Below are positions 6,265 through 44,827 of a stretch of 64,000 nt of DNA, in pieces. Numbering within the stretch: position 1 is the first letter of the stretch; each line of letters begins with the position of its first letter. The stretch is from Acidimicrobiales bacterium (GTDB lineage Bacteria > Actinomycetota > Acidimicrobiia > Acidimicrobiales > JAUJNH01): positions 175,473 to 239,472 of the forward strand of contig JAUJNH010000002.1 in NCBI GenBank assembly GCA_030448245.1, read 5' to 3'. A model generated the notes under the pieces. That model made no database searches and had not been told where the DNA came from. It saw nothing but the letters and a program-made list of their open reading frames with translations. Made by a program: the position numbers and the translations under genes.

Positions 6265-6636
6265 TCAGCCCATGTAGATGAGCTCGGACTTGCCGTCGGC
6301 CACCTCGGTCAGGATCTCACCGAGCTGGCGCGGCACGCCGCCGATGGCCTCGATCTGCTCGCTTGACACCGCACGGGTGTCGACGCAGCCGGGTCAGAGG
6401 GAGACGAGGAAGGGGGCGTCGATCGACTCCTTCACCTTCTGGCGCAGCTGGTCGCCCTGCTCGGTGTCGGGGATGCCGTCGGGCTGGGCCAGCCGCACGG
6501 CGTCACCGGCCAGGCGGACCTCGGCCTCCAGGCCGGTGTTCGAGGCGACCGTGGCGAAGTGGTAGGCCGACCACGCCGGCCTCGGGTTCGCCCGTGTGTC
6601 GGCCCCGGCGAAGAAGATCAGCTTTCTCCTGGCCAT
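6265..6636 (-). CDS. DsrE-family protein with in-frame UGA, probable selenoprotein
   Basis: DsrE/DsrF-like small sulfur-relay-type fold. ATG at 6636 has an excellent AGGAGGT 4 nt upstream. Translation gives MARRKLIFFAGAD and continues to DAPFLVSL (residue 80), where TGA (6394-6396) occurs. The same frame continues PGCVDTRAVSSEQIEAIGG to a TGA at 6265, giving 123 residues, a normal length for the family. Reading the UGA as selenocysteine (U81) creates a U-P-G-C redox motif, where relatives are expected to carry Cys. A hairpin fitting the bacterial SECIS rules follows immediately (6357-6389), and selA and selB are in this same window. The start is 2 nt after the stop of the ABC transporter ATPase, so the gene belongs to that operon. 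The alternative is a nonsense-truncated 80-residue protein. Confidence 0.82.
6357..6389 (-). promoter_or_regulatory. Bacterial SECIS-like hairpin
   Basis: Directly after the UGA the transcript can fold into an upper stem GACACC/GGUGUC (6376-6381 with 6365-6370) with apical loop CGUGC. A two-sided internal loop follows, then a lower stem CGU/GCG and GCU/AGC with one bulged G. The loop begins 18 nt after the UGA and has G in its second position. Published bacterial SECIS rules ask for a short loop with an early G, 16-37 nt from the UGA, on a 4-16 bp stem. It would be the binding site for SelB's C-terminal domain. Confidence 0.75.
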
Positions 6637-6638
6637 TG

Positions 6639-7663
6639 CTACCTCCTGGTCTGGTTGTCGATGTGGTCGAGCTCCCCCTCGCTGGCCGCGAGGAGGAGCT
6701 TGGTGTAGTCGCTGCACGGGCAGTGCACCACGTCGTCGCTGGGGCCGGCCTCGACGATCTTGCCCCGGTGCATCACGACCATGCGGTCCGACACCCAGCG
6801 GGCGAGGGCCAGGTCGTGGGTGATGTACACGAAGGCGGTGCCGAACTTGTCGCGGATGCCGAGGATCAGCTCGAGGATCCCGGCGCAGAGCGAGGCGTCG
6901 AGCATCGAGGTCGGCTCGTCGGCGATCACCAGCTTCGGCTCGGCCACCAGCGCCCGGGCCAGTGCCACCCGCTGCCGCTGGCCGCCTGAGAGCTGGTGGG
7001 GGAACCTCCGGCAGAAGTCGGCTGCCGGGTGCAGGGCCACCTGCTCGACCGCCCCTCGGACGGCTTCGCTGCGGGTGGCCCGCGGCGTGGCTCGCAGGGC
7101 CAGCGGCTCGGCCACCAGCGACTCGACCCGAAGCCCCGGGTGGAGTGACTGGTACGGGTCCTGCAGCACCAGGTGCATCCGCTGGCGGGCCTGGCGCAGC
7201 TCCCGCCGGGACAGGGCCGCCAGGTCCTGGCCGTCGAAGCGCACGGTGCCCTCGTCGGGCTTGTCCAGGCCGAGGATCAGCCGGGCCAGCGTGCTCTTGC
7301 CGGCGCCGCTCTCGCCCACCAGGGCCACCACCTCCCCCTCCTCGACCGTGAGGGAGACGTCGTCGACGGCGCGAATGTCGGCCTTGGAGCGCTGGCCTCG
7401 TCGGGCCCCGAACGACTTCGAGACGCCCTGCAGGTCCAAGACGATCCTTCCCGCCGAGATGTCGGGACTCGCTGACCCCCTGCCTTCCCTCGTCGCTTCC
7501 CCCGGCTCGCCTGCCGGCTCGCCTCCTCCGCTCCTCGGTCCAGACAGGGGACGCTCACCCCTCACCGGCTCGCTCGCTGCGCTCGCCGTCCTTCCCGCCG
7601 AGATGTCGGGACTCGCTGACCCCCTGCGTTCCCTCGTCGCCTCCTCCGGCTCGCTCGAGCTGC

Positions 7664-7667
<4 letters not shown>
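6639..7667 (-). CDS. Oligopeptide ABC transporter ATP-binding protein (DppF/OppF type)
   Basis: Second ATPase of the transporter. Walker A is GESGAGKST, the Q-loop region LVLQDPYQSLHP, the signature LSGGQRQRVALARAL, Walker B KLVIADEPTS and the H-loop ITHD. Start is GTG 7667, overlapping the previous stop by 4 nt (GTGA). The first 75 or so residues are not ABC sequence: they are an in-frame translation of a repeated DNA element, with EATREGRGSASPDISAGR occurring twice in near-identical form. The ATPase domain proper begins at IVLDLQGVSKSFG. The length of 342 residues exceeds the domain because of this leader. It energises uptake with the other operon products. Confidence 0.88.
7445..7652. repeat. 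Duplicated and dispersed GC-rich repeat inside the ATPase leader
   Basis: A block of about 64 nt at 7445-7508 recurs at 7589-7652, exactly 144 nt away, with only a few mismatches; the first 38 bases are identical. Between the copies (7530-7588) lies a second element containing CACCGGCTCGCTCGCTGCG. Close relatives of this second element occur at 16969-17030 and 49851-49917. All copies in this block are read in frame as the ATPase N-terminal leader. Confidence 0.75.
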
Positions 7668-9588
<1,921 letters not shown>

Positions 9589-9592
<4 letters not shown>

Positions 9593-10572
9593 GCCCGTCG
9601 CGCCCGGGGCCGCCGGACCCTCGGGTCGAGCAGGGGGTAGGCCAGGTCGTTGATGAGGTTGGCCAGGACGACCGTGACGATCAGCAGCAGGAAGGCGCCC
9701 TGCAGCACGGGGTAGTCGCGGGACAGCACGCTCTCGTAGATCAGCCGCCCGAGGCCGGGATAGGAGAAGACCGTCTCCACCACGGCTGCGCCGCCCACCA
9801 GCGTCCCGAGCCCGACCAGGGCCACCGTCGACACCGGCAGCAGGGCGTTGCGCGAGGCGTGGCGGCGCACCTCCCGGTCGGTCAGGCCCTTGGCCTCGGC
9901 CATCAGGACGTAGTCCTCCTGCAGCTCGCCGACCAGGGCCGACCGGGCCACCAGGTACATGGGCCCCAGGCCGGCGATGGTGAGCGTGGCCACCGGCAGC
10001 ACGGCCCGCTGGAGCACCTGGCCGACCAGCGCGAGGCCTTCTACTTCCTGCCCCGACAGGGCGCCGTAGCTGGGGAACCAGCCGAGGCCCACGGAGAACA
10101 CGAGGAGGAGCAGCGTCCCGACGAAGAACGGTGGCAGGGCGTCGAGGAACATCACGGCCCCCAGGGCGCCGGTGTCGGTGCTGGTCCCCCGCCGCCACGC
10201 CGACCGGAACCCAAGCGCCGCTCCGATCAGGGTGGACAGGGCCAGCGACCCGCCGACGAGCAGTAGGGTCCAGCCGACCCGCTCGAACAGCAGCGCCGTG
10301 ACGGGGCGCCCGAAGCGGACGGACACGAGCAGGTCACCGCGGGCGATGCCGGCCAGGTAAGCCCGGAACTGCTCGGGCATCGGGTCGTCGAGGCCGAAGC
10401 GGTCGAGGATCTCGGTGCGCTGCGCCGGGGTCAGCGAGGCGGCCACCTCGTCCGGGAGGATGTAGTCGATGGCGTCCCCCGGGGCCAGCCGGGGGAGCGC
10501 GAAGTTGAGCACGATGGCCGCGAAGAGCACCGCCCCGTACTGGCCGACGGTGCGCAGGAGGTGCCGCTTCAC
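9589..10572 (-). CDS. Oligopeptide ABC transporter permease (DppB type)
   Basis: A 327-residue inner-membrane permease. It starts with basic KRHLLRTVGQYGAVLF and has about six hydrophobic segments. The N-terminal signature LNFALPRLAPGDAIDYIL is typical of DppB/OppB, and the cytoplasmic EAA loop is MAEAKGLTDREVRRHASRNA. The frame is open much further upstream; I chose GTG 10572, which lies 4 nt after the stop of the binding-protein gene. It pairs with the permease half of the fused protein to form the translocation path. Confidence 0.88.
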
Positions 10573-10576
10573 GAGG

Positions 10577-12409
10577 TCACTCGTCCTCGGTGGCCTTCTT
10601 CCGACGGGCCTTGGCGATCCCAAAGGCAGCCAGGCCGGCCAGCAGCGCCCCACCGACGACGAACGGGACGGCGGAGGTGCCCCCGCCTTCGCCGCCGCCG
10701 CCGCCACCCGTGGCACCGCTGCCGCCACCGGTGCCGTTGGCGCCGCCCTTGTTCAGGGCGATGTTGTCGTAGCCGGTCAGGAACGAGCGCTTGGTGAGGA
10801 TCCCCTGGCCCCGGTCGTTCACCCAGCCGTCGTAGGCGGCCTGCCGGTAGGCCCAGATGCCGTCGGGGTACCACAGCACCTGCTGCGGGAGGTCACGGGC
10901 CAGGAGGTCCTGGGCCTCGCTCAGCAGCCGCCGCCGCTCGCTGGTGTCGGCCGTGGAGGCCTCCTCGACGAGCTTGTCGTACTCCGGGTTGGAGTAGCCG
11001 GTGATCGCGGCGCCGAAGCCCTTCGCCTTCTCGCCGGGCTTGGGCGGCGAGTGGAAGAAGTAGTAGAGGGCGTCGGGGTCGACGTGGGCGTGCGACTCGA
11101 TGTTCCCCACGTAGGCGTCGTACGTCGGCGGCTGACCTGGTGCGCCGCTGCGCCGCGAGCGCAGGGTGGCGGGGTCGAGCGACTCGACGTTGTACTTCAC
11201 GCCGATCGCCTGCATCTGGCTGGCGATCAGCTGCAGGGCCCGCAGCTCGAGCGGCTCGAACGAGTTGACCAGGATGGCGAACTCGAGGCGCTTGCCGTCG
11301 GGCGTCTTGCGGATCCCATCGGGGTCCTTGGCCGTGTAGCCGGCCTGATCCAGCATCGTGTTCGCCCCGGTCGGGTCGAACTGGTGCCCGGCGTCCTTCT
11401 TGGCCCACGGCGAGTCGGGGTGGAGGTAGGTGTCACGGCCGGGACGGGCCCGCCCGAGAAGCACCGTCTTGACGACGTCGTCGAGGTTCATGCCCATGCT
11501 CATGGCCTTGCGCAGCTTGGGGTCGCTGAGCGGCGCCTTGCGGGCGTTGAAGGACAGCTGGATCGACTCGAAGCGGGTGCCCTCGGCGACGCCGATGCCG
11601 CTGGTGCCCTTGAGCTGGTCGACCAGCTCACCCGGCACGTTGCGCTCGACCATGTCGACGTCACCCGTGCGCAGCGCCGTGAACGAGCTGCCAGGGTCCT
11701 TGATGATCACCATCTCGAGGCGGTCGATGCGGGGCTTGCCCTTGAAGTAGCTCTGGTTGGCCTCGAACCGGTAGCGCTGGTCGGGCACGATCTCGACCAG
11801 CTTGAAGGGCCCGGTGCCCACGGGCAGGTTCGTGGTGGCCTTGGCCGGCTCGGGGATGTTCTGGAAGATGTGCTTGGCGATGATCGGGAGGTCGGCGCCG
11901 GGCATGATCTTGAACTGCGGCGCCGCCGCCGAGAAGAAGAGCTTGATGGTCTTGGGGTCGACGATCTCGGACCGGTCGAAGGCCGGCACGTCGGAGACGT
12001 GGTGGGCGTAGCGGCCCGAGGCGCCCTCCTGCTTCTTGTAGAAGTCGTAGCTGAAGGCCACGTCCTCAGCGCTGAAGGGCCTGCCGTCCTGCCAGGTGAT
12101 GCCTTCCCGCAGCGTCACCGTCCACACCTTGCCCCCCTCGGACGCCTCGGCCTTCTCGGCCAGCCACGGCTCGGGGTCGGCCTTGGCCTGCGACCAGAAC
12201 AGGGCGTCGTAGACCAGGTGCTGGATGTCGTTGGTGGCCGGGTTGGCCCCGAAGCCCACCGTGAAGGGCGTGATGTTGTTCTCGTTGCCCTTGATGGCCA
12301 CCTTCACCGTCCGTGGCCCCGCCTGGCCGCTCGCCGGGCCGACCACGGCCAACGAGGTGGCCACCAGGCCGAGGGCGCACACCAACAAGCTCAAACGTCG
12401 CAGCGACAT
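10577..12409 (-). CDS. Peptide ABC transporter substrate-binding protein with C-terminal anchor
   Basis: Family 5 (SBP_bac_5) binding protein of 610 residues. The N-terminal signal peptide is MSLRRLSLLVCALGLVATSL with cleavage near ASG. There is no lipobox cysteine. Near the C-terminus there is a glycine-rich linker, then a hydrophobic segment (VPFVVGGALLAGLAAFGIA) and a basic tail (KARRKK), so the receptor appears to be held by a C-terminal membrane helix rather than by lipid. GAAGGA precedes the ATG at 12409. First gene of the operon binding protein, DppB, DppC-D, DppF, DsrE. The substrate is probably a peptide, not provable here. Confidence 0.88.
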   Translation of the reverse strand: MSLRRLSLLVCALGLVATSLAVVGPASGQAGPRTVKVAIKGNENNITPFTVGFGANPATNDIQHLVYDALFWSQAKADPEPWLAEKAEASEGGKVWTVTLREGITWQDGRPFSAEDVAFSYDFYKKQEGASGRYAHHVSDVPAFDRSEIVDPKTIKLFFSAAAPQFKIMPGADLPIIAKHIFQNIPEPAKATTNLPVGTGPFKLVEIVPDQRYRFEANQSYFKGKPRIDRLEMVIIKDPGSSFTALRTGDVDMVERNVPGELVDQLKGTSGIGVAEGTRFESIQLSFNARKAPLSDPKLRKAMSMGMNLDDVVKTVLLGRARPGRDTYLHPDSPWAKKDAGHQFDPTGANTMLDQAGYTAKDPDGIRKTPDGKRLEFAILVNSFEPLELRALQLIASQMQAIGVKYNVESLDPATLRSRRSGAPGQPPTYDAYVGNIESHAHVDPDALYYFFHSPPKPGEKAKGFGAAITGYSNPEYDKLVEEASTADTSERRRLLSEAQDLLARDLPQQVLWYPDGIWAYRQAAYDGWVNDRGQGILTKRSFLTGYDNIALNKGGANGTGGGSGATGGGGGGEGGGTSAVPFVVGGALLAGLAAFGIAKARRKKATEDE

Positions 12410-12506
12410 ATCGTCCTTCTTCCACGTAGTACACCGCGCAACCTTGCAGGTGTTTGAAGGCGGTGTCAAAACCTCCGCGACGCCGGCTGTGCAAGGCTCG
12501 ATCCGG

Positions 12507-41746: not shown

Positions 41747-43471
41747 TTAGGCGGTCGGCAGGCGGGGGCCGGCCAGGCGGAGGTCACCGCGCCGGCGGGT
41801 GGCGCCGCTGGCGTCGAGGAGGGAGGCCAGCGGCACGGCCCACTTCCGGGTGGTGCCCCACACCTCGCGCAGCTGCGACAGCGTGACCCCCTCCGGGTGG
41901 TCGCGCAGCAGAGCGGCGGCGGCGAGGGCGGCGGCGTCGACCGCCTCGGCCGCGAACCAGGTCCCGTCGCGCTCGAGGACCAGGCCGCGCCGGGCCAGCT
42001 CGCGCAGCTCGATGCGATCGACGCCGTCGGGCGGGGGCGGCGCGAACAGCTGGGCCCGCACCGCGGCCAGCCACGGGTGGCTCTCCAGGGTGTCGGGCGC
42101 CGCCGCGGCCAGCCGCCACCTGCCGTCGACGAGGGCCACCCCGTCCACCAGCCCCGCCTCGGCGACCAGGCGCTGCCTCTTGTCGAGCCCGGCGGCGTCG
42201 AGGCCCAGGGGCCCGGCCCCGTCGACGGCGCTGGCCACCGACGAGATCGTCTCGGCCAGCGCCTCGGGCGAGGCGACCCACCGGCCGACCGTGGGCTCGG
42301 CCCGCTCTCCGGTGAGCCGTTCGAGCATGTCGGCCGTGACCCACCCCCGCTCGGCGACGACCCGGGCCACCGAGCGGTCGGGCTTGGCCTTCGACACCCG
42401 CAGCACCGGGTCGACGTCGAGAACCTCACCGCCGCCGACCGTCTCGCCCCGCCCGTGCTCGCGCACCACGAAGCGATCCCCGGGCAGGAGGGGCAGGGGC
42501 ACGGGCAGATGGAGGCGGACCAGGCCGTGCTCGCCGGGCGCCAGCCGATCGGGCCCGAGGACCCGGAGCCGGCAGGGCACGGCCGCCGTGCCGACGTGGA
42601 GGACGTAGGCGCCCCGACGGGAGACGTCGTGGTCGAGGGCGGCCAGGACGCCGAGCGAGCCGTCGAAGCGGGCGCTGGCCGCCCAGCGGCCCGGGTGCAC
42701 CAGGGCCTCGCCGCGGCGCACGTCCTGGTGGCCGACCCCGACCAGGTTCACGGCCAGGCGGTGGCCTGGCCCCACCTGCTCGCGGCTGGCCCCCTGGGTC
42801 TGCAGGCCCCTGACCCGCGCCTTGCGCCCCGACGGGCGCAGCTCGACCTCGTCGCCGACCGCCAGGCTGCCGGCGGCGAGGGTCCCGGTGACCACGGTGC
42901 CCGAGCCGCGGGCGGCGAAGGAGCGGTCCACCCACAGCCGGGCCCGCCCCCGGTCGGCGGGCTCCGGCAGCTCGGCCAGCAGGGCGGTGAGAGCGGCCCG
43001 CAGGTCGTCGAGCCCGATCCCCGCCGGCGCGTCGACCGGCACCACGGGGGCGTCGGCCAGCGGCGATCCGGCCAGCCGCTCCTCCACCTCCCACAGGGCC
43101 AGCTGCTGCTCGTCCTCGTCGACCAGCCCGACCTTGGTCAGGGCCACGATCCCCCGGTGCACGCCGAGGAGCTCGAGGATGCGCAGGTGCTCCTCGGTCT
43201 GCGGCTTCCAGCCCTCGGTCGCCGCCACCACGAACAGGCAGGCGTCGACCGCCCCGACCCCGGCCAGCATGTTGGGGAGGAAGCGGACGTGCCCCGGCAC
43301 GTCGACCAGCTCCAGGCGCCGAGACCCCAGATCGGTCGCCGCGAAGCCGAGGTCGATGGTGAGACCCCGGGCCTTTTCCTCGGCCCACCGGTCCGGGTCA
43401 GTGCCCGTCAGGGCCAGCACCAGGGTCGACTTGCCGTGGTCGACGTGGCCGGCGGTGGCGACGACGGGCAC
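41747..43471 (-). CDS. selB: Selenocysteine-specific translation elongation factor
   Basis: A 574-residue GTPase that carries Sec-tRNA(Sec) to UGA codons next to a SECIS element. G1 is GHVDHGKST (8-16), G2 region EKARGLTIDLGF, G3 DVPGH (57-61), G4-like TKVG, then EF-Tu-like domains II and III. The C-terminal winged-helix repeats (from about residue 370) bind SECIS RNA: RVVAERGWVTADMLERLTGE, ELRELARRGLVLERDGTWF and the last one ending LREVWGTTRKWAVPL. These C-terminal repeats separate it from EF-Tu. Downstream of selA by 108 nt; no tRNA(Sec) is visible in that gap. Confidence 0.95.
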   Translation of the reverse strand: MPVVATAGHVDHGKSTLVLALTGTDPDRWAEEKARGLTIDLGFAATDLGSRRLELVDVPGHVRFLPNMLAGVGAVDACLFVVAATEGWKPQTEEHLRILELLGVHRGIVALTKVGLVDEDEQQLALWEVEERLAGSPLADAPVVPVDAPAGIGLDDLRAALTALLAELPEPADRGRARLWVDRSFAARGSGTVVTGTLAAGSLAVGDEVELRPSGRKARVRGLQTQGASREQVGPGHRLAVNLVGVGHQDVRRGEALVHPGRWAASARFDGSLGVLAALDHDVSRRGAYVLHVGTAAVPCRLRVLGPDRLAPGEHGLVRLHLPVPLPLLPGDRFVVREHGRGETVGGGEVLDVDPVLRVSKAKPDRSVARVVAERGWVTADMLERLTGERAEPTVGRWVASPEALAETISSVASAVDGAGPLGLDAAGLDKRQRLVAEAGLVDGVALVDGRWRLAAAAPDTLESHPWLAAVRAQLFAPPPPDGVDRIELRELARRGLVLERDGTWFAAEAVDAAALAAAALLRDHPEGVTLSQLREVWGTTRKWAVPLASLLDASGATRRRGDLRLAGPRLPTA

Positions 43472-43579
43472 GCGCCCATGATGGCCGTCCCTCAGCCGCT
43501 ACCCCACAAGCTGCCCGACCACGGCCGCGGTGCGGGTGGCCGCCTTCCTCGAAGCCCCTGGAGCAGCTGCTGGCCGCGT

Positions 43580-44827
43580 TCAGCAGTCGGCCAGCGCCGC
43601 CTTCAGGACCTCGTCGTCTGCGGGGTCGACGGTGCGGAGGTCGCAGATGGTGCGGCCGGCGTCGACGCGGGCGATCACCGGGGGGTCGTGGCGGCGCAGG
43701 GCCGCGGTGAGGTCGCCGTCGAGGGCGACGCCGGCGCTCGGGACCTCCTGCCCGGGCACGCTGCCGCCGCCGGGGACGGCCACGGTGTCGACCACGCGGC
43801 CGGCGCCGAGGGCGCCGGCCCGGGCCCGCAGCTCCTCGACCGGGGTGAGGGCCATGCGCCAGAACGGGACCACGGTCGCCACGTCGCGGCGGAGGTAGGC
43901 GAGCAGCACCTCGGACAGCGCCTGGAGGACCAGGCCGCCGGGGCGCAGCGCCCGGGCCAGCGGGTGGCGGGCGCAGGCCTCGACCAGGTCCGCCCGGCCG
44001 GCGATCACCCCGCCCTGGGGGCCGCCCAGGAGCTTGTCGCACGAGAAGGTGACCAGGGATGCGCCGTCCTCCAACGTCTGGCGGACCGCGGGCTCGCCGG
44101 CCAGCCACGCCGGGGGCGGCCCGGGAAGCCACGGGCAGCCGAGGTCGAGGAGGCCCGAGCCGATGTCGGCGACCACGGGCCGGCCGAGCGCAGCCAGCTC
44201 GGCGATCGCCGGCTGCTCGGTGAAGCCGACGATGCGGTAGTTCGAGGGGTGCACGTGGAGGATGACGTCCGACCCGGCGGCGGCGTGGTCGGAGGCCCGG
44301 GTCCGGTTGGTGGTGCCGACCTCGACCAGCTGGCAGCCCGACTGGGCCACCACCTCGGGCACCCGGAAGCCTCCCCCGATCTCGACCAGCTGGCCGCGGG
44401 CCACGCTGACCCGCTGCCCCGACGCGGTGGCGGCGAGGGCCAGGAGGATGGCCCCGGCCCCGTTTCCGACCACCAGCGCGGCCTCCGCCCCGGTCAGCCG
44501 CCGCACCAGGTCGGCCGGCCGCCCGTCCCCCTGGCGGCTGCCCCTGCGGCCGGAGGCCACGTCGATCTCGAGGTTCTGGTAGCGAACCGGACCGCCGCCG
44601 GTGGGGGGAAGGGGGGCTCGGCCCAGGTTGGTGTGCAGCAGCACGCCGGTGGCGTTCACCACCGGTGCCAGGAGGGCGGCGGCGAGCTCGTCGGCCCTGG
44701 TCGGCGCCACCTCCCACTCGTCCGCGGCGATCGCCTCGCGGGCCACCTCGACGCACAGCGCGTGGGGGAGCCCCGACCCCGAGAGGGACCGGGCCAGCCG
44801 ATCGACCGACGGCGGTCGCCTCTCCAC
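43580..44827 (-). CDS. selA: L-seryl-tRNA(Sec) selenium transferase
   Basis: PLP enzyme converting Ser-tRNA(Sec) to Sec-tRNA(Sec) with selenophosphate. 415 residues, slightly shorter than E. coli SelA. The N-terminal tRNA-binding part is followed by NATGVLLHTNLGRAPLP, VGNGAGAILLALAAT, VGTTNRTRASDH and HPSNYRIVGF. The PLP-binding lysine is K265 in FSCDKLLGGPQGG. GTG 44827 start; the longer upstream frame is a shadow of the PBP gene. It requires selD (selenophosphate synthase) and selC, neither seen here. Confidence 0.95.
   Translation of the reverse strand: MERRPPSVDRLARSLSGSGLPHALCVEVAREAIAADEWEVAPTRADELAAALLAPVVNATGVLLHTNLGRAPLPPTGGGPVRYQNLEIDVASGRRGSRQGDGRPADLVRRLTGAEAALVVGNGAGAILLALAATASGQRVSVARGQLVEIGGGFRVPEVVAQSGCQLVEVGTTNRTRASDHAAAGSDVILHVHPSNYRIVGFTEQPAIAELAALGRPVVADIGSGLLDLGCPWLPGPPPAWLAGEPAVRQTLEDGASLVTFSCDKLLGGPQGGVIAGRADLVEACARHPLARALRPGGLVLQALSEVLLAYLRRDVATVVPFWRMALTPVEELRARAGALGAGRVVDTVAVPGGGSVPGQEVPSAGVALDGDLTAALRRHDPPVIARVDAGRTICDLRTVDPADDEVLKAALADC

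Follow-up and report, generated by a model that had tools for sequence, protein, structure and literature searches.

A DsrE-family gene with an in-frame UGA, very probably encoding a selenoprotein, closes an Opp/Nik-type transporter operon and co-occurs with [NiFe]-hydrogenases in actinobacterial genomes

The 64,000 nt stretch of DNA analyzed here (the window) is part of an Acidimicrobiales genome (G000; 3.26 Mb, 92.8% complete). It includes a small gene, dsrE(U), on the minus strand at 6265..6636. The start codon is ATG at 6636-6634, downstream of an AGGAGG ribosome binding site that was read directly (6642..6647, minus strand), and the frame meets a TGA at codon 81 (6394..6396, minus strand). 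The standard reading cuts the product here, at 80 residues. The first-pass annotation instead read the frame through this TGA into 42 more codons, and its coordinates and counts are correct: 42 sense codons lie beyond TGA 6396-6394, and a second TGA at 6267-6265 closes the gene. With codon 81 read as selenocysteine (Sec), the product would be a 123-residue protein with the motif U-P-G-C. The read-through protein matches the Pfam DsrE family (PF02635) at 29.5 bits, above the curated gathering cut-off of 22.7, and the match covers residues 17-115, across the UGA. When eight Sec DsrE proteins were used as queries, NCBIfam gave no match at E<=0.001, and the two matches listed at E<=1 fell well short of the cut-offs of the families concerned, which are unrelated. 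As for the tusD_dsrE equivalog (TIGR03012), the protein P0001 was without any NCBIfam match at E<=1, and a Cys-containing relative reached 12.7 bits against a cut-off of 89.25. An AlphaFold model built from seven sequences was poor (pLDDT 45). Among viral contigs, 23 pattern matches were found, none of which was a relative.

Genes for Sec synthesis and insertion occur in the same genome. The selA and selB genes, which had been placed in the window at 41747-44827, both exceed their NCBIfam cut-offs: selB (41747..43471, minus strand) scored 280.6 bits with TIGR00475 (cut-off 242.25), and selA (43580..44827, start approximate, minus strand) scored 354.8 bits with TIGR00474 (cut-off 267.9). The first-pass annotation had left selC and selD to be looked for elsewhere in the genome, and both are there. 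The selC gene was called as tRNA-SeC by ARAGORN and scored 59.9 bits in Rfam (cut-off 47), and selD, outside the window, scored 311.8 bits (cut-off 125), so that selA, selB, selC and selD are all found in G000. A formate dehydrogenase-like gene on contig 4 (L113, 1501-2241) has an in-frame TGA in the motif ARIUHSA, as expected for a Sec-decoding host; its family match is partial and below the cut-off. Twelve further genomes were tested for tRNA-Sec, and 11 have it above the cut-off, including eight of the nine that carry the dsrE(U) branch defined below as group A; the search of G682, a group A genome, gave no match.

We searched for homologs in 396 genomes of the phylum (8 with a match), 395 of the class (6), 397 of the order (an alignment-based search; 74 with a match, mostly to distant DsrE proteins) and 39 of one family (14), and in a collection of genome contigs (6 loci). 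All 28 sequences above 70 bits from the order search were read, together with 12 weaker ones. The branch that includes dsrE(U), group A, comprises 22 Sec sequences from 21 actinobacterial genomes. This count retains a partial sequence from G826 (57.5 bits). It leaves out a G891 fragment (contig 95, query 2-55) that ends short of the site, a G216 sequence (contig 271) that contains a single TGA and a single TAG, and a G1021 sequence. The latter (L117, Rubrobacteraceae) is a group A dsrE whose reading frame is disrupted by stop codons and a frameshift. By the tree, the sequences labelled B_G755a, B_G917a, B_G892b, B_G793a and B_G917c are members of group A.

Codon 81 is TGA in all 22 group A sequences and never TAA or TAG, a count that, like the others across these orthologs, is not independent because the sequences are kin. 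The close relatives without TGA (>90 bits) number four, come from three genomes (G917, G892 and G793) and fall inside group A in the tree; all four have Cys at the Sec position, in the motif C-P-R-S. Weaker TGA-free sequences that were read and have the loop also have Cys at the site. The sole exception is G774, a distant DsrE sequence (49 bits) with neither Cys nor Sec. The expectation in the first-pass annotation that homologs would have Cys or Sec here is thus borne out by group A and its close relatives; contrary to it are G774 and a set of paralogs, group B, that have Ser or Ala. The U-x-x-C motif that it described holds for the window gene and, as U-P-x-C, for 14 of the 22 sequences, but not for the other eight, which have U-P-x-S and lack the second Cys.

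Groups B and C were counted separately from group A. Group B proteins have Sec three residues after the U81 site (S/A-P-G-U), and group C proteins have U-K-G/A-C, plus one sequence with U-G-G-C. One DsrE paralog of each group is present in G000: the window gene (A), a group B gene on contig 9 (L002, 1495-1854) that adjoins a CobW GTPase gene, and a group C gene on contig 13 (L082, 7611-7970; PF02635 at 59.8 bits). Further members of group B, likewise with the later Sec, are at L020, L038, L052, L053 and L078, and other group C paralogs are at L018, L080, L083 and L118-L120, Rubrobacteraceae included. In G583 and G814, the group B gene adjoins a WhiB-like ORF, in a gene order reminiscent of that around selA/selB in the window. 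At L026, an ORF like the N-terminus of permease B (9976-10353; permease B is described below) directly precedes the group B gene and is perhaps the remnant of a lost ABC operon.

Protein-level conservation continues past the UGA, as the first-pass annotation had supposed. In 12 of 12 hand-picked pairs, dN was lower than dS in the part after the UGA, although barely so in the closest pair (0.14 vs 0.21). Judged by these substitution rates, the downstream part is under purifying selection. A pseudogene reading was rejected on this evidence and on the retention of TGA in 22 of 22 sequences.

A SECIS-like hairpin lies just downstream of the UGA (6365..6381, minus strand). Its core, GACACC-CGUGC-GGUGUC (6381-6365), has a 6-bp stem and a 5-nt loop, CGUGC, and starts 12 nt after the UGA. 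The geometry described in the first-pass annotation was reproduced: the loop is 18 nt from the UGA and its second base is G. The GU of the loop resembles the site bound by SelB in E. coli. In the window sequence alone, the hairpin has a fold z-score of -0.95, with 30 of 200 shuffles equally stable, and the p values against synonymous recodings were 0.12 (pairs) and 0.10 (energy). Across the orthologs, all six stem pairs form in 20 of the 22 group A Sec sequences and five of six form in the two G755 sequences, where synonymous recoding would give about 4.2 pairs (3.4 for G755; single-sequence p about 0.11-0.17). The four Cys relatives form only one or two of the six pairs, and the hairpin is absent from them. 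In the ortholog alignment (21 distinct sequences), 98.4% of the cells pair and the covariation score was reached by none of 500 shuffles, a test that kinship of the sequences alone can exceed. When the partner columns were slid by 1-3 positions, pairing fell to 30-60%.

A single pair of the six (columns 18-30) accounts for the covariation. It occurs as CG, GC, UA, AU and UG and joins two third codon positions, one in an Asp/Glu codon and the other in a Val codon. The Val codon changes only synonymously, and changes on the other side sometimes replace Asp by Glu. Four of the six pairs are invariant, and the number of pairs altered on both sides is not unusual (matched by 381 of 500 shuffles). 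In the loop, 20 of 22 sequences and none of the four Cys relatives have the codon CGT, which makes up 7.5% of the Arg codons of the window. Thus, the window hairpin by itself is unremarkable, and the comparison across orthologs lifts it above chance. In group B, in which the UGA is three codons later, a hairpin lies further downstream in the predicted fold of four of six sequences.

These observations bear on how the UGA is read. If it were a true stop, the gene would encode an 80-residue truncated protein or be a pseudogene; the lack of significance of the hairpin when the window sequence is taken alone and the broken relative in G1021 are compatible with this, but the invariant TGA, the selection on the part after it and the Sec machinery in the genome are not, and we give this reading very little credence. 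It is just as improbable that the UGA is read in some other way, through a reassigned code, near-cognate read-through or a programmed event. Nothing was found in favor of such decoding, dsrE(U) itself terminates at a UGA, the close relatives have Cys at the site, and selA, selB, selC and selD are present. In combination, the results make it nearly certain that codon 81 is decoded as Sec and that dsrE(U) encodes a selenoprotein, with Sec insertion itself deduced from genomic evidence. SelB with Sec-tRNA would read the UGA, aided by the hairpin just downstream.

The placement of the gene in a transporter operon, as first annotated, is also correct. Upstream of dsrE(U) on the minus strand are genes for a substrate-binding protein (SBP_bac_5, 263.3 bits; ORF limits 10577..12469), permease B (ORF limits 9589..10728), a fusion of permease C and ABC ATPase D (7664..9586, start approximate) and an OppF/NikE-like ABC ATPase (6639..7472, start approximate; ABC_tran at 127.9 bits, listed NCBIfam matches below their cut-offs). 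The stop codon of the latter finishes 2 nt ahead of the dsrE(U) ATG, and dsrE(U) is the last gene of the set. The ABC proteins resemble Opp and nickel transporters, with all listed models under their cut-offs. The best NCBIfam match of permease B is the nickel permease Opp2B (226.6 of the 350 bits needed), and the binding protein reached 146.1 of 393 bits with NikA, so that scores stayed below the NikABCDE nickel equivalog cut-offs; among NCBIfam families, the binding protein matches the oligopeptide protein Opp4A best, again below the cut-off.

This gene order is conserved. An ABC ATPase gene immediately precedes dsrE(U) in 18 of 20 testable group A sequences, the exceptions being G672 and G916; G216 and G826 were omitted from the test, as the gene starts within about 100 nt of a contig end. 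The binding protein gene is also within the retrieved stretch in 11 of the 18, and in the other seven the stretch ends after the ATPase alone or after the ATPase and the permease/ATPase. None of the four Cys relatives has an ABC ATPase directly before the gene. Generic ABC genes occur 2-5 kb from two of them (L086 and L087), not directly upstream.

The operon is, moreover, tied to [NiFe]-hydrogenase. A [NiFe] large subunit (E<=1e-25) is encoded in 19 of the 21 group A genomes versus three of 59 same-order controls (Fisher 2.5e-13), the controls being the first SelB-positive genomes (E<=1e-40) listed without group A. Weak PF00374 matches in G091, G499, G551, G572 and G602 (E 1e-12 to 1e-18), which involve the N-terminal part only and were taken as complex I-like, were left uncounted. 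G891 and G336 carry dsrE(U) and gave no match in the hydrogenase search. One of the three hydrogenase-positive controls, G583, has group B. Among matched-family genomes without group A, picked by hand, seven of 24 have the large subunit, and all four f87 genomes with the Cys form or group B have the hydrogenase. Given these counts (3/59, 7/24 and 4/4), dsrE(U) is not obligatory for the hydrogenase. Genomes with the hydrogenase and no group A gene are not rare; the reverse, the gene without the hydrogenase, is seldom seen.

The two are on one contig in eight genomes, 9.5-19.9 kb apart. In G672, dsrE(U) is located between a gene for a MinD/CooC-like ATPase and hypF, with hypE and hypD 3-5 kb beyond, and in G694 hypD is 1.1 kb from dsrE(U); the HypF, HypE and HypD proteins concerned exceed their cut-offs, and the name CooC-like is given by resemblance, not by a model match. 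A hydrogenase small-subunit-like gene is about 8 kb from dsrE(U) in G130, below the model cut-offs. In G000, the hydrogenase (contig C15) and dsrE(U) (contig C12) are on different contigs. The G000 hydrogenase locus encodes a maturation protease, a NifU-like protein, a MinD/CooC-like ATPase and a TPR protein, and its hydrogenase is probably of group 1m. Near this locus is a second Opp-type ABC set by an FmdE-like ORF (L110, 262-11000, contig 15). In G130, G327 and G336, an FmdE gene likewise precedes the dsrE(U) operon.

Two other roles for a real selenoprotein have to be weighed. The transporter may import a selenium compound, a peptide or another ligand, with the hydrogenase co-occurrence reflecting a shared lifestyle or inheritance of the cluster. 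The Opp4A match of the binding protein, the separate contigs in G000 and the frequent hydrogenases without the gene (7/24) would fit this, against the proximity in eight genomes and the hyp genes beside dsrE(U) in G672, and we regard it as improbable. Alternatively, the protein may be a sulfur or selenium relay, that is, a TusD/DsrE-like persulfide carrier, or a thiol or peroxide enzyme, and its link to the hydrogenase indirect. Membership of the DsrE family, the absence of a second Cys from eight of 22 sequences and the alignment of U81 with a Cys of TusD (2d1p_A) and DsrE (2hy5_A), in weak profile matches (E 0.14 and 0.15), agree with such a role; against it stand the operon shared with an Opp/Nik-type importer and the nearness to hydrogenase genes. 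We consider it rather unlikely, though clearly less so than import of another ligand.

The reading that we prefer combines the selenoprotein with a carrier in hydrogenase biogenesis that works with a nickel-type importer, and as a whole it seems somewhat better than evenly supported. As the second Cys is missing from eight of 22 Sec sequences and from all four Cys relatives, the conserved element is a single selenol, which favors a protein that carries one chalcogen and acts on the cytosolic side of a nickel-type importer. Its chemistry probably depends on one selenol and not on a selenenylsulfide formed by U-x-x-C, and the U-x-x-S sequences together with the S-P-G-U paralog suggest that these DsrE selenoproteins require a single selenol rather than a redox pair. 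The product would be a cytosolic DsrE-fold carrier of a single chalcogen, with Sec where TusD and DsrE hold Cys, made as the final gene product of the import operon. It would most likely take over, reduce or release an imported nickel complex, or provide it with a chalcogen step, upstream of the action of Hyp-type and CooC-like proteins. From gene context we infer that the operon with dsrE(U) as its last gene serves [NiFe]-hydrogenase biogenesis; this function, like the role of the protein and the transporter substrate, is plausible, at slightly less than even odds.

Selenium occurs inside some hydrogenases (NiFeSe). The operon and hydrogenase pattern hints at something else, an unrecognized selenium helper in hydrogenase assembly, and a report of a selenoprotein acting beside hydrogenases was not found in the literature searched. 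If the link is causal, these bacteria may require selenium, via an accessory protein, to oxidize H2. More tentatively still, the findings could mean that high-affinity [NiFe]-hydrogenases of actinobacteria depend on selenium at one step of their nickel supply or cofactor assembly, carried out by a dedicated DsrE selenoprotein with an Opp/Nik-type importer. They could also mean that, within one genome, DsrE proteins have Sec at two alternative positions of one loop, at U81 in group A and three residues further on in group B, with the hairpin placed to match.

The best solved relative of the window protein is YchN (1jx7, E 0.00027), the sole significant structure match. Its CKTC aligns with UPGC, and it differs in having Cys and no Sec. 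The TusD and DsrE carriers differ likewise in having Cys, presumably their sulfur-carrying Cys, at the position of U81, where the window protein has Sec together with the transporter and hydrogenase linkage.

The group 1m [NiFe]-hydrogenase cluster of Actinobacteriota is described in section 6 of PMC9561532, and the G000 locus resembles it in the maturation protease, NifU-like protein, MinD/CooC-like ATPase, TPR protein and small membrane-type ORFs; for this cluster, that section mentions neither a DsrE protein nor a selenoprotein nor an ABC operon. The SAO system (SaoX/SaoB/SaoP), as outlined in PMC13188914, shares with the window system the combination of Sec and an ABC transporter, and differs in that here Sec sits in the DsrE protein. 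Identity with SAO was rejected, as SaoX, SaoB and SaoP models are absent among the 10 families listed for the binding protein and the 12 listed for permease B (E<=1e-5).

DsrE-like selenoproteins as such are already known. Tables in PMC1088965, PMC2398784 and PMC13188914 include examples with U-x-x-C, the first two papers bearing out the statement in the first-pass annotation that such proteins have been reported from marine metagenomes, and one from Desulfovibrio vulgaris is listed in PMC1794560. The Sargasso Sea, GOS (DsrE 1 and DsrE 2) and D. vulgaris proteins share with the window gene the first-position Sec of U-x-x-C, and PF02635 is common to the window gene and the Sargasso, GOS DsrE 2 and review entries. 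An actinobacterial DsrE selenoprotein, an S-x-x-U DsrE protein or a hydrogenase-tied DsrE selenoprotein was not found in the literature searched, outside of which lie many subscription papers. Compared by description with the published proteins, the genes reported here differ in being actinobacterial, in belonging to an ABC operon, in having U-x-x-S in eight of 22 sequences and in the S-P-G-U paralog of the same genome. Thus, as far as searched, what is new is the actinobacterial branch with its U-x-x-S members, two more UGA-bearing DsrE paralogs in G000, one of them S-P-G-U, and the conserved ABC-operon link and co-occurrence with [NiFe]-hydrogenase.
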